Virus record (IMG/VR): IMGVR_UViG_3300031951_001167
Location: 1-24,347 of that record
Direction: 5' to 3' (one strand)
Length of the DNA stretch: 24,347 nt
Source of the DNA: a virus
In this document: piece after piece, positions 10,680 through 19,212 of the stretch
How positions within the stretch are numbered: position 1 is the first letter of the stretch
Layout of the letters: each line of letters starts with the position of its first letter
Made by a program: the position numbers and the translations under genes
Notes under the pieces: generated by a model
What the model was told of the DNA's origin: nothing
The model's database searches: none
Seen by the model: only the letters and a program-made list of their open reading frames with translations

Positions 10680-11159
10680 ATGGCTTATGTAAAAATAGAC
10701 AATCCAGAGATAATTGATATGGCAAGCATCCAAAAAATAATTGATGTTATAAATGACCATAGTGATTATTTAAATGTTTTAGTTAATAGGTTTGGTGCTG
10801 ATTATATACCAGACTGGCTTGCAGACGATGTTCAGTCCGATTTTGATTTAGCAACAAGTAATATTGTGTTTGGAAAAATAAAATTAAATCCAGATAATGA
10901 AGATCATGTTGGTGATAGTAATGGAGATCCATACTATCGTCGCACGTATAATTTTGAAACTGGTGTAATCTTTTCAAAGGCTCCACGAGTAATAGTTTCT
11001 CATGACAATACAGATGGAACTATTGGTGGACAGCTTGATATTGTTGTATCAACTCATAATGTTACAACAACTGCATTTACTGTTAGAGCATATAAGCCAG
11101 ATGGTTCAGCAGCGAATGCGCCAATAATTGTAAACTTTATTGCTATTGGTCCAAGATAG
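10680..11159 (+). CDS. Small tail protein with H-type-lectin-like domain
   Basis: A 159-residue protein. Residues 10-40 are predicted helical and amphipathic (IIDMASIQKIIDVINDHSDY) and could trimerise or anchor it to the tail. Residues about 88-159 follow the H-type lectin pattern: an F-rich strand (NFETGVIFSKAPRVIVS), then VSTHNVTTTAFTVRAY, and a terminal VNFIAIGPR like the closing W/F-x-AxG strand of that family. H-type lectins bind sugars, often GalNAc, as trimers or hexamers, so a role in recognising host surface glycans is plausible. The gene has its own putative promoter and a strong SD and sits between the hub and the fibres. The match was made by eye, so the fold is probable and the sugar specificity unknown. 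Confidence 0.6.
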   Translation: MAYVKIDNPEIIDMASIQKIIDVINDHSDYLNVLVNRFGADYIPDWLADDVQSDFDLATSNIVFGKIKLNPDNEDHVGDSNGDPYYRRTYNFETGVIFSKAPRVIVSHDNTDGTIGGQLDIVVSTHNVTTTAFTVRAYKPDGSAANAPIIVNFIAIGPR

Positions 11160-13526: not shown

Positions 13527-15773
13527 ATGCCAATTAATAGATTTAAATCTAACGGTTCATGGGGAAACATCGGTTTTGTTTATAGATTAAAAAATAATGG
13601 AACTTGGAAAAGGTTACAGTCAGTCTATAGACTTAAATCAAACGGAACCTGGAATTTAGTTTACTCTGTTGCATCAAACGTTCCAGTATTATCTATAGCT
13701 CCAACACTAACAAATCAAATAGCAAGCTCTACTGATTTTAAAAATGAAGATACGTTAACATTAACAAGAGGAACATGGGAAAATACTGGATCGTTATATG
13801 ATCCAGTATCATATTCTTTAAAAATTCAATATAGTGACTCAGCCTCTGGACCTTGGACAAATGCATCAACAGGGACTGGTACTAGTATATCTTATGAAAT
13901 ACCTATTGATCAAACTAGATCTCCGAGTAAATATTTTAGAGGTCGTGTAGAAGTTACCAACTCATCTGGAACTGCTGAATATAATACTACCCCAGTTCGT
14001 TCTAGAATAAATCTTTCTGTTACAAAACCAGTTGTTAGCACTTCTCCAAATGTTATAACGGTATCATGGATAACTATACCAACAAATAGTTCTTTAAATA
14101 TAGAATCACAGACATTGCAAATTATTGCAAATCAACAATATACATTTAATGGAAATACATATAACATCGGCGATACCGTATATTCATCGTCTATTTCCCC
14201 TGGAACTCAAACTAATGTAAATATATCATTATCTGGTACAAATATTACAGCGCCAATATCTTATAAAGCTAAAGTAATAGTTGTTGCAAAAGATTCTGCT
14301 CAAACTACAGTTACATCAGAACTAAGTGATGCTTTTACAACAAATGCTTTAACTGCACCAACACCTACAGATGTTACATGGACATTAATAGGCGGTACTA
14401 AAACTTGGAGCATATTCTTTAGCGGTGGAAGTGGTCCTTATTATCAAGCTACTTATGCACTTAGTCCTATTGAGCAAACTACAACTGGATTTGAAGCAAG
14501 TGGTTCTTCTAGCCCAATACTTTATACTGGATTAGCTAACCCTACTGATAATACAACATATTATTGGTTTGTTAGATCATCTAATGCTTTAGATTCAAGT
14601 GATTCAAGTAATATAAGCGCTTGGTCTGCTGCATCAGTATCATATACTCCAAGAATTCCATATAATGTTTCTGTATCAATTTCTCCAACAAGTGGTGTTC
14701 TTGGACAACAAACATTTACTGCAACAGCTAATGCAGAAGGAACCCCAACTCCAGACATTGCTTATCAATGGCAGTTTTATGATTCTGAAATTACACAATC
14801 TTGGCAAAATTTGGGAACTAGCCCAGCATCAAATCTTTCTACATATACACCACAAACAAATTTTCCTGGAACAAAATTAAGGTGCTCTATAGTTGCAACT
14901 AACCTTATGGGTAGTACTCCTGCATTTAGCAATGAAGCCATTCTTTCTGCTCCATCTCCATTTTTCCCACCAAGCTTTCCATTTTTTCCACCAACATTCG
15001 TACCAACATATACTCTTACGGTTAATTGTAATGGTGGAACTGGATGTCCAGCTTCTGGAACTCATACTGGATCATATACTATACCATCTACAGATCCAAC
15101 AAGAACAGATCATTCATTTAATGGATATGGAGTTACTTGTTCTGGATCAAACATAGGAACCTATACAGCTGGACAAACAATTTTGTGTGAAGGAAATCTT
15201 GTATTAACAGCATCATGGACCTCATTGCTTGCTGCTCCAGTTAATACGGTTGCTCCTTCAGTTACACCATCTAGCGGTGCTCCAGGGACTCAATTCTCAT
15301 GCTCACAGGGTACATGGACTGGATACCCAACTCCGACATATTCGTATCAATGGCAAAGTTTTGAATCTGGTTTTGGATGGTTTAATATTTCTGGTGCTAC
15401 ATCAAATACATTTACACCAGGCGCTGGATATGCTGGAACAAATATAAAATGTATTGTTACTGCAACAAATAGTCAGGGAAGTGCATCACAAGAATCAAAT
15501 ATTGCTCAAGTAACTGCAGCACCGTCTCCGTTCTTCCCGCCTAGCTTCCCGTTTTTCCCGCCTAGCTTCCCATTCTTCCCACCTAGCTTCCCGTTCTTCC
15601 CACCTAGCTTCCCGTTCTTCCCACCGACCTTTGGGGCTACATGGTATTGTAGTACTTATAGTAATGGTTCATGTAGTACCTTTACATCTAGCTTTGATGC
15701 AACTGGAGATGATGCTGGTGGAGCAATTCAAACTAGATGTTCAACATCTGGTTATCCAACATGTCCATTTTAG
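13527..15773 (+). CDS. Multidomain tail fibre with Ig-like modules and PFFPPSF heptads
   Basis: A 748-residue fibre-like protein. The N-terminus has three 15-residue repeats of the RLKSNGTW type (residues 5-48), probably a virion-attachment or oligomerisation segment. FN3/Ig-like beta domains follow. Two related Ig-like modules (about 380-474 and 570-667; YQWQ, then TKLRCSIVATN or TNIKCIVTATN) each end in APSPFFPPSF. The first is followed by two heptads (residues 478-491), the second by five (668-702). Between them residues about 495-565 resemble an InlB/Listeria-Bacteroides repeat (YTLTVNCNGGTGCPASG, DPTRTDHSFNGYG, LVLTASWT) with cysteines at 501 and 507 and more further on. The last 46 residues contain four Cys. 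These features fit an exposed adhesive fibre. There is no SD: the ATG follows an A-rich tract. The ligand is unknown. Confidence 0.72.
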   Translation: MPINRFKSNGSWGNIGFVYRLKNNGTWKRLQSVYRLKSNGTWNLVYSVASNVPVLSIAPTLTNQIASSTDFKNEDTLTLTRGTWENTGSLYDPVSYSLKIQYSDSASGPWTNASTGTGTSISYEIPIDQTRSPSKYFRGRVEVTNSSGTAEYNTTPVRSRINLSVTKPVVSTSPNVITVSWITIPTNSSLNIESQTLQIIANQQYTFNGNTYNIGDTVYSSSISPGTQTNVNISLSGTNITAPISYKAKVIVVAKDSAQTTVTSELSDAFTTNALTAPTPTDVTWTLIGGTKTWSIFFSGGSGPYYQATYALSPIEQTTTGFEASGSSSPILYTGLANPTDNTTYYWFVRSSNALDSSDSSNISAWSAASVSYTPRIPYNVSVSISPTSGVLGQQTFTATANAEGTPTPDIAYQWQFYDSEITQSWQNLGTSPASNLSTYTPQTNFPGTKLRCSIVATNLMGSTPAFSNEAILSAPSPFFPPSFPFFPPTFVPTYTLTVNCNGGTGCPASGTHTGSYTIPSTDPTRTDHSFNGYGVTCSGSNIGTYTAGQTILCEGNLVLTASWTSLLAAPVNTVAPSVTPSSGAPGTQFSCSQGTWTGYPTPTYSYQWQSFESGFGWFNISGATSNTFTPGAGYAGTNIKCIVTATNSQGSASQESNIAQVTAAPSPFFPPSFPFFPPSFPFFPPSFPFFPPSFPFFPPTFGATWYCSTYSNGSCSTFTSSFDATGDDAGGAIQTRCSTSGYPTCPF
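13539..13673 (+). repeat. Three 45-base direct repeats, 15-residue units
   Basis: At the start of the 748-residue fibre gene, units begin at 13539, 13584 and 13629 with the protein pattern R(F/L)K(S/N)NG(S/T)W...VY. The third unit is the most diverged at its end. The DNA copies are not identical, so this is an old protein-level repeat rather than a recent duplication. Confidence 0.8.
14958..14999 (+). repeat. Two 21-base repeats coding PFFPPSF and PFFPPTF
   Basis: This short block follows the first Ig-like module of the fibre gene. Codons are AT-leaning (CCA, TTT), in line with the rest of the genome and unlike the second block at 15528. Confidence 0.9.
15528..15632 (+). repeat. Five tandem 21-base repeats coding PFFPPSF (last PFFPPTF)
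   Basis: Units start at 15528, 15549, 15570, 15591 and 15612. They are nearly identical in DNA (a unit reads CCG TTC TTC CCG CCT AGC TTC, with a few third-base changes). Proline and phenylalanine codons are C/G-ended, making a GC-rich island in an AT-rich gene. The repeat stays in frame if units are gained or lost. Confidence 0.95.
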
Positions 15774-17443: not shown

Positions 17444-18656
17444 TTCAGAAGCAAAGGTAATATCTGCTGTACTTAATGATAAGCAAATACATGTATTACT
17501 ACAGGCTAATCTAGATAATATTTTACGTACACATAATGATGTATGGAATTTTATTAGACACTATTTTGATATTAATGGTAGTGTGCCACCGACATCACTT
17601 GTAGTTGAAAAGTTTAGAGATTTTCAAGTCATACCAGATATTGGGGCTACCAAACATCATCTTGATGAACTTCAAACAGAATACCTTAATGATAGCCTAA
17701 AAGATATACTAAGAACTGCAGCTACAGATGTTCAAGGTGGTAATGGAGGCCAAGCCCTAGAGCAATTAATTACAAAGACTTCTGAGCTAAAGAAAAACAC
17801 ATCTGCTATTAGAGATGTTGATGTTACTGATCTTGATTCTGCCGTTGCCTATTACGAAAACGTCCAAAAGATGAAAGAGTCTGGGCAAGTTGGAATCAAA
17901 ACTGGGCTGCCAGGATTTGACAATTATCTCCCATCTGGGATTATGCCAGGACAGCTTGGTGTTTTCCTAGCATATCCAGGTATTGGAAAGTCCTGGCTTG
18001 CTCTTTACTTTGCAGTGCAAGCTTGGAAGCAGGGCAGATCTCCTCTTATTATTTCTCTTGAAATGTCAGAAACTGAAGTTCGTAATCGTGTATTTGCAAT
18101 TATGGGTGAGGGCTTGTGGTCACATCGTAAACTTAGCAACGGAGAAGTAGAGATTGATATGCTTAAGAAATGGCATGCTAGTAAGCTTGATAGTAAACCA
18201 GCATTCCATATTATCTCTAACGACTCTGGTGGTGAAGTAACTCCATCCGTTATTCGTGGAAAAATAGATCAATATAAACCAGACTTTGTTGTTGTTGATT
18301 ATCTTCAGCTTATGTCTCCTAATCAAAAGTCTGATAATGAGACGGTACGAATGAAGAACTTGTCTCGTGAACTTAAACTAATGGCTATTAGTGAAGAGGT
18401 TCCCATTATTGCAATTTCATCTGCTACCCCAGACGACGTAAAAGATCTCAGCAGTGCTCCAACGCTTGGTCAAACAGCTTGGTCACGACAGATTGCTTAC
18501 GATGCAGACTGGGTTATGGCACTTGGTCGTGCAACAAATAGTGATATTATTGAATGTGTATTTAGAAAAAATAGAAATGGTTTTATGGGAGACTTCTTAG
18601 TTCAGGTAGATTTTGATAGAGGATATTATAAATACAAGGACTTTGAAGAAAAATAA
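17436..18656 (+). CDS. dnaB: DnaB-like replicative DNA helicase
   Basis: A 406-residue RecA-fold helicase that would unwind DNA at the phage fork. Walker A is AYPGIGKS (residues 179-186) and Walker B is VVVDYLQL (285-292, with D288). LEMSETEVRNR (208-218) matches the DnaB motif after Walker A, and the C-terminal FRKNRNG (376-382) fits the arginine-finger/H4 region. It is shorter than bacterial DnaB (about 450-470), and the N-terminal domain is reduced and diverged. The start is GTG, 7 bases after AGGAAGTGG-like SD sequence (AGGAAG 17423-17428), and overlaps the previous gene by 8 bases. The alternative name RecA-like/GP4d helicase would mean the same role. Confidence 0.93.
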   Translation: MNNSEAKVISAVLNDKQIHVLLQANLDNILRTHNDVWNFIRHYFDINGSVPPTSLVVEKFRDFQVIPDIGATKHHLDELQTEYLNDSLKDILRTAATDVQGGNGGQALEQLITKTSELKKNTSAIRDVDVTDLDSAVAYYENVQKMKESGQVGIKTGLPGFDNYLPSGIMPGQLGVFLAYPGIGKSWLALYFAVQAWKQGRSPLIISLEMSETEVRNRVFAIMGEGLWSHRKLSNGEVEIDMLKKWHASKLDSKPAFHIISNDSGGEVTPSVIRGKIDQYKPDFVVVDYLQLMSPNQKSDNETVRMKNLSRELKLMAISEEVPIIAISSATPDDVKDLSSAPTLGQTAWSRQIAYDADWVMALGRATNSDIIECVFRKNRNGFMGDFLVQVDFDRGYYKYKDFEEK

Positions 18657-18657
18657 A

Positions 18658-19212
18658 ATGAATGCTAATCCAAGAATTAACAACGGTATTGTTACGGTAT
18701 ACTCTAATAATATAGATACACATTATTGGATAGATCTTCTTGAAAAGGTTAGCTTAGACTCATATCCATTTGAAGATGTTGCTCGTCGTCCACATCAAAC
18801 AATGGAGCTTCCAGCAATATATAATAAAAATGATAGCTATTCCGCAATAGAGCTACGTGCTATGTTTTATAACATACTCAATGACTCTTTAATTCATTTC
18901 ATGCAAACAAACAACATGAAAAGAATGGAACCACTAAGGGATACTATAACTGCATCAAAACTGTTTCCAGATAAACCAATGAATGCCCACCAAGATATTA
19001 CTGACGATAGATTTGATAGCTTTATTGCACAACTATATATTAACGATGATTATGATGGTGGTGAATTAACTTTTCCAGAAAGCTCATACAACTACAAGCC
19101 AAAGGCTGGAGACATGGCATATTATAAGATGAATGCTATGCACGGAGTACTTGCAATATCTTCTGGATTACGATATACTATAGGATATAGCTTATTAGGA
19201 CCATACAATTAA
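18658..19212 (+). CDS. 2-oxoglutarate/Fe(II)-dependent oxygenase (prolyl 4-hydroxylase-like)
   Basis: A 184-residue protein starting at ATG 18658; an in-frame TTG at 18613 lies inside the helicase gene and is unlikely. The double-stranded beta-helix signature is present: HQD (H111, D113) and H162 bind iron, and R172 in GLRYTIGYS would bind the 2-oxoglutarate carboxylate. YDGGELTFPE (132-141) and KPKAGDMAYY (147-156) are typical of the prolyl-4-hydroxylase-like (P4Hc) family. Enzymes of this type hydroxylate proline or other residues, or nucleic acid bases, using O2 and 2-oxoglutarate. The gene sits between helicase and primase with gaps of 1 base, a position also seen in other large phages. 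The substrate cannot be told from sequence. Confidence 0.9.
   Translation: MNANPRINNGIVTVYSNNIDTHYWIDLLEKVSLDSYPFEDVARRPHQTMELPAIYNKNDSYSAIELRAMFYNILNDSLIHFMQTNNMKRMEPLRDTITASKLFPDKPMNAHQDITDDRFDSFIAQLYINDDYDGGELTFPESSYNYKPKAGDMAYYKMNAMHGVLAISSGLRYTIGYSLLGPYN

Follow-up and report, generated by a model that had tools for sequence, protein, structure and literature searches.

Phe/Pro repeat blocks in a fibre-like gene of an uncultured phage: a probable length-variable spacer and joint for tip exchange

The closest described systems are the collagen-like Gly-X-Y repeats of phage structural proteins, the Ig-like and fn3 arrays of phage fibres and decoration proteins, and the phage 2OG-Fe(II) oxygenases. 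For mimivirus, PMC8968730 reports a viral collagen that is hydroxylated, citing Luther (2011), and the 2OG oxygenases of cyanophages have been assigned a metabolic role (PMC3037559). The locus described here resembles the collagen-like systems in having a proline-rich tandem repeat in a predicted virion protein, but its FFPP arrays are built from Phe/Pro units of three, four and seven residues and do not have Gly at every third position; neither block contains any Gly, and a collagen-like repeat was rejected because of this lack of Gly periodicity. The domains that bear the blocks are of the same kind as the known Ig-like and fn3 families, whereas the Phe/Pro linker and the behaviour of its DNA lie outside them. 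An oxygenase of the same domain family as the cyanophage examples (PF13640; PMC3037559) is encoded both in the DNA studied here and beside other FFPP genes; the cyanophage enzymes have been discussed as metabolic, and no paper among those searched was found to describe such a gene next to one for a proline-rich fibre.

We consider that the blocks are probably a length-variable, unfolded spacer and a recombination joint in front of an exchangeable fibre tip. In a modular phage fibre, each Ig-like domain would be followed by a Phe/Pro-rich spacer, with block 2 joining the last Ig domain to the tip. The array DNA, a tandem repeat of 21 nt here and of mixed 9- and 12-nt steps elsewhere, would gain and lose units in frame, the number of units would set the distance of the tip from the fibre, and the array would offer a common stretch of DNA for tip exchange between phages. 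More speculatively, neighbouring prolyl-hydroxylase-like enzymes might hydroxylate the array prolines.

The fibre-like gene and its two repeat blocks

The stretch analysed (the window), a linear viral record of 24.3 kb and a metagenomic fragment, has tail genes followed by genes for a DnaB-like helicase, a 2OG-Fe(II) oxygenase, a primase and a single-strand-binding protein. A modular fibre-like ORF of 748 aa (13527–15773, + strand, as are its parts and the oxygenase gene described below) lies downstream of minor-tail-like genes (phrog_10359, phrog_11445) and contains both blocks in an open reading frame. It begins with an anchor of 'YRLKxxGxW'-type repeats (13527–13667), followed by several beta domains, Ig-like domain 1 (14652–14951), block 1 (14958–14999), a Cys-containing domain resembling Listeria–Bacteroides (InlB-type) repeats (15003–15227), Ig-like domain 2 (15228–15521), block 2 (15528–15632) and a Cys-containing C-terminal tip (15633–15770). 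Alignment shows the N-terminus to be conserved in relatives in which the rest of the fibre is replaced, the anchor being kept in L121 and L124 with the remainder unrelated. The InlB-type name is given by resemblance only, since the Flg_new/PF09479 match was to the fibre of L028 and not to the window protein. Between two tail genes lies a gene (10680–11159) whose small product has an H-type lectin domain (PF09458, 29.9 bits) and could possibly be a second receptor-binding protein.

In the AlphaFold2 model both Ig domains are folded, as is the InlB-like domain, and the two blocks and the tip are unfolded. Ig-like domain 1 is a beta domain (pLDDT about 70–90) with Ig matches in the PDB, and domain 2 (pLDDT about 90–95) matches PHROG structural families and, at about 46 %, virion proteins of Stenotrophomonas phage; a Foldseek search with the predicted model also led to Ig structures. 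Block 1 is a low-confidence coil (residues 109–121, pLDDT <50) and block 2 has pLDDT of about 30–40, the confidence of AlphaFold2 for the FFPP arrays themselves being low. Ig-like domain 1 with block 1 is 45 % identical at the amino acid level to Ig-like domain 2 with block 2, linker included, and each copy contains APSPFFPPSF. The two are copies of a single duplicated module, and the blocks are not independent of one another because each ends one copy of the same Ig-like module.

Both heptad blocks lie in the fibre frame at exactly the positions originally given. Block 1 consists of CCATTTTTCCCACCAAGCTTT and CCATTTTTTCCACCAACATTC, encoding PFFPPSF and PFFPPTF, and block 2 of four 21-nt PFFPPSF units followed by one PFFPPTF; that the closing unit of each block is PFFPPTF is a small correction to the original description. 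Tandem Repeats Finder reports block 2 with period 21, 4.7 copies, 93 % matches and a score of 168, and its five units form the longest pure heptad run seen (others have three at most). Two different codon dialects had been proposed for the blocks. Block 2 is clearly of TTC type (13/15 Phe codons), but CCG makes up only about half of its prolines (7/15, with CCA and CCT at 4/15 each); block 1 is mainly CCA/TTT (CCA 6/6, TTT 4/6, TTC 2/6). The counted genes of the window outside the blocks have 282 TTT and 29 TTC codons (about 10 % TTC), and CCG at 11 of 311 Pro codons. The excess of TTC in block 2 over this background is strong (P=4×10−12), and is still apparent if only a single ancestral unit with 3/3 TTC is counted (P=8×10−4); the difference between block 2 and block 1 (P=0.03) is weak alone because tandem copies are not independent.

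The sole fibre ortholog found, in L200, was reached only through the DnaB gene, direct searches for fibre relatives having returned nothing new. It has the same domain order, is 86 % identical over the InlB-like domain and Ig-like domain 2, and carries Phe/Pro linkers at both homologous sites. These are made of FFPP tetrads, the first being 19 aa long compared with 14 in block 1, and the second running for about 60 aa to the C-terminus compared with 36 plus tip in the window; the L200 protein thus ends in its FFPP array and has no Cys tip. TTC is used for 33 of the 37 Phe codons in or at its linkers, and TTT nearly everywhere else in its fibre. Searches for a near-identical record of the window, for a within-population count of units, found none, L200 (75 % identical) being the only ortholog in the collection. 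FFPP occurs in only five of 38 records comprising the window and its relatives. L121 is 91 % identical to the window over 7.7 kb of tail genes, yet its fibre after the anchor is wholly replaced and has no FFPP. In the replacement fibre (L121, 7805–10060) a series of Cys-rich repeats (CTGTGSYSNTSG...GTRCGSCTY) takes the place of the FFPP module.

Local growth of block 2, which had been proposed from its near-identical units, agrees with the comparison: units 1–4 differ at 1–3 of 21 nt, whereas the homologous flank of the block differs by about 25 % between the window and L200, and units with CCTAGC were seen in no other viral contig. We infer that block 2 grew once the window and L200 had diverged. 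Because tandem repeats are easily misassembled and the record is a metagenomic fragment, block 2 might be an assembly artefact; this is very improbable, given that the block is 105 nt long and in frame, that its units differ by 1–5 nt, and that Phe/Pro linkers stand at both sites in the ortholog.

A class of FFPP arrays varying in length and tip

The suggestion that PFFPPSF heptads be sought in other phage fibres proved fruitful: a degenerate pattern, PFFPP[ST..]FPFFPP, found at least 119 stretches with related arrays in viral contigs. Together with the two linkers of L200, these bear out the view that the peptide motif is kept while its codons vary. The arrays are composed of xFP and xFPP steps. 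A typical carrier is a protein of 170–450 aa in which the array follows one fn3 domain or two and either closes the protein or precedes a short Cys-rich tip or a Hint-like domain; more than one array gene was present in several contigs. The window shares with this class a Phe/Pro segment of tandemly repeated units that contain PFFP and the position of the array directly after an Ig/fn3-type domain, and block 2, unlike block 1, shares its richness in TTC. There was no match over the array itself in Pfam or PHROGs, no sequence match to it in the PDB, and no description of the class in the literature searched, peptide searches giving unrelated proteins. Among cultured phages, tblastn found no match to two fn3-FFPP proteins, a search in which BLAST low-complexity masking could miss arrays in unrelated proteins. 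A scan of 84,980 bacterial and archaeal species gave 67 matching stretches, of which about four were true arrays, mostly phage-protein-like; a host origin was rejected because the matches were mostly frame-shifted or antisense chance hits. FFPP arrays apparently constitute a widespread, undescribed class of Phe/Pro repeat segments in uncultured phages and, being common in viral metagenomes, can serve to mark a large group of them. Array-specific codons and prolyl-hydroxylase-like neighbours, described below, are two unexpected properties of the class.

Several variant forms were seen. In L073, L084, L119, L101 and L099 the array is followed at the C-terminus by an intein/Hint-like domain, several of which end in VHN; the L084 domain matches PF14890 at 24.5 bits, below the cut-off of 35.8. 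A self-processing tip is possible in the Hint-bearing proteins. YFPP/FFPP-array proteins are present in the bacterial MAG contigs L155 (whose protein has a PASTA domain), L166 and L187, which may be binned phage contigs. In the virion-like proteins of L078, L031 and L056, FFPP units occur together with (V/A)PVAP or PTPTPT repeats, and PYFPPPYFSxxWGG units also occur in L078 and L031.

The 21-nt unit had led to the expectation that the repeats would change length without breaking the frame, and this is what near-clonal pairs of other class members show, each having essentially one large in-frame indel that equals the difference in array length. L002 and L106 differ at three positions of 5,454 nt and by a single 66-nt gap; the corresponding values are 0 in 5,349 nt plus 57 nt for L014/L111, 0 in 3,372 nt plus 66 nt for L021/L093, and 2 in 9,259 nt plus 30 nt for L067/L102, and the arrays of L060 and L061 differ by 24 nt. 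Some of these differences could be assembly collapse, since long arrays elsewhere exceed a typical short read. The length of the spacer would seem to matter for reach or flexibility.

The tips are replaced at the array. Of the 121 pairs whose upstream domains are alike (score of at least 0.75; the pairs are not independent events), 77 have tips that are unrelated or missing, and L049 and L105, for example, match over the upstream domains and the greater part of the array before diverging. Conversely, there are two cases of a common tip on unrelated upstream domains, and 25 of 95 distinct FFPP C-termini end in Cys-rich tips other than that of the window. These alignments place the FFPP array at what appears to be a tip-exchange joint, and the common array DNA may well promote the exchange. 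The class offers a concrete case of the evolution of fibre length and tips.

Codon use in the arrays

At all 94 distinct loci the array uses TTC more often than the remainder of its contig does (means of 0.86 and 0.19), and TTC-rich array coding is found at every genome GC. The idea that block 2 grew from a GC-richer seed is therefore unsupported; TTC-rich arrays are the norm of the class, so block 2 needs no special seed, and it is block 1 that is the deviant. This array-specific rule is a clean system in which to separate translational selection from DNA-level history. Three simpler causes were rejected. Avoidance of +1 frameshifting at TTT-CCN alone does not fit, as both Phe codons of FF are equally TTC (0.90 and 0.89); general sequence context is not the full cause, TTC reaching 0.39 before a codon starting with C and 0.36 before Phe, not 0.9; and renewal by growth alone does not explain the conservation, because array length does not predict TTC use.

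We tentatively infer that selection for accurate or rapid decoding maintains the array codons: TTC and TAC would be well decoded and long Phe/Pro runs slow or error-prone to translate, and arrays would favour these codons in the same way as the capsid gene. Tyr is likewise encoded by TAC at 0.82 in arrays compared with 0.31, TTTTTT encodes only 2 % of FF within arrays and 47 % outside, and among 1,428 other genes just 0.07 % reach a TTC share of at least 0.85, the top two being major-head-like. This last match speaks for translational selection in the case of TTC, though not of CCG, which is hardly used in the two capsid-like genes (0.00 and 0.09). In the arrays CCG is raised mainly before Phe (0.44 versus 0.08) and not between prolines (0.11), and because the choice is position-specific a tRNA preference fails to explain it; moreover, TTT is tolerated in block 1 of the window. 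Alternatively, and to our minds also somewhat short of an even chance, the codons may reflect history, the 12-mer CC[A/G]TTCTTCCCA spreading between fibre genes by recombination and being renewed by tandem growth before amelioration. This 12-mer accounts for 54 % of 1,837 units, each form being present in about 119 of 149 arrays; TTC is lower in first than in middle units (0.81 versus 0.89, P=0.001), and block 1 looks ameliorated. Against such a history, last units are not lower in TTC (0.94), and short arrays are as rich in TTC as long ones.

Prolyl-hydroxylase-like neighbours

The window encodes one prolyl-hydroxylase-like 2OG-Fe(II) oxygenase (18613–19212; PF13640 at 27.5 bits, above the curated cut-off of 27), which has weak matches to the PKHD hydroxylase PiuC and bacterial P4H (P4H profile E-value, 3.6×10−12). 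It lies 2.8 kb downstream of the fibre gene, and there is no cluster of such genes in the 24 kb of this fragment. Elsewhere in the class, clusters of PF13640 oxygenase and DUF6065 genes lie downstream of FFPP genes on the same strand, and at least 570 loci in viral contigs are related to these clusters.

The phage oxygenases might hydroxylate the Pro-Pro motifs of the arrays, stiffening the spacer or readying it for glycosylation, which would extend the spacer model; we regard this as doubtful, and put it forward from gene neighbourhoods as a speculative hypothesis and not as a result. In its favour, besides the family member in the window itself, PF13640 genes are present in 28 of 28 FFPP contigs, and 69 of 75 FFPP genes have an oxygenase within 5 kb downstream. 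Over the 6 kb downstream of FFPP genes there are about 0.7–0.9 oxygenase genes per kb, far above the 0.03–0.07 per kb over the same distance upstream; relatives of the window that lack FFPP have two such genes in 1,087 kb, although these controls are of one clade and many FFPP contigs share a common architecture and are not independent; 526 of 537 oxygenase genes are on the strand of the FFPP gene. Reciprocally, 38 of 43 oxygenase-ortholog loci with at least 6 kb of upstream sequence have FFPP 3.5–6.6 kb upstream, and the A6 profile, of a cluster ortholog, has prolyl 4-hydroxylases as its nearest solved structures (E-value, 4×10−6), but the A6 seeds were taken from FFPP contigs. Also against hydroxylation, the oxygenase occurs with no FFPP in the stretch covered in three L289-type contigs, L310 and L345; the link is weak in the window clade because L124 and L127 keep the oxygenase without an FFPP fibre; and other roles, concerning 2-oxoglutarate and nitrogen status, have been proposed for such oxygenases in cyanophages (PMC3037559).

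The broader proposal, that many uncultured phages build hydroxyproline-rich fibres in which a hydroxylase-modified Phe/Pro repeat is a length-tunable joint for swaps of receptor-binding tips, is in our judgement unlikely, but if true it would represent a post-translationally modified fibre type new to phages. The adjacency also makes testable a long-open question, namely on which substrates the numerous 2OG-Fe(II) oxygenases in aquatic phages act. Clusters of PF13640 and DUF6065 genes stand directly after the FFPP genes in L049 (1754–6808), L071 (8482–14138), L113, L102 and L027, that of L049 having two DUF6065 genes.
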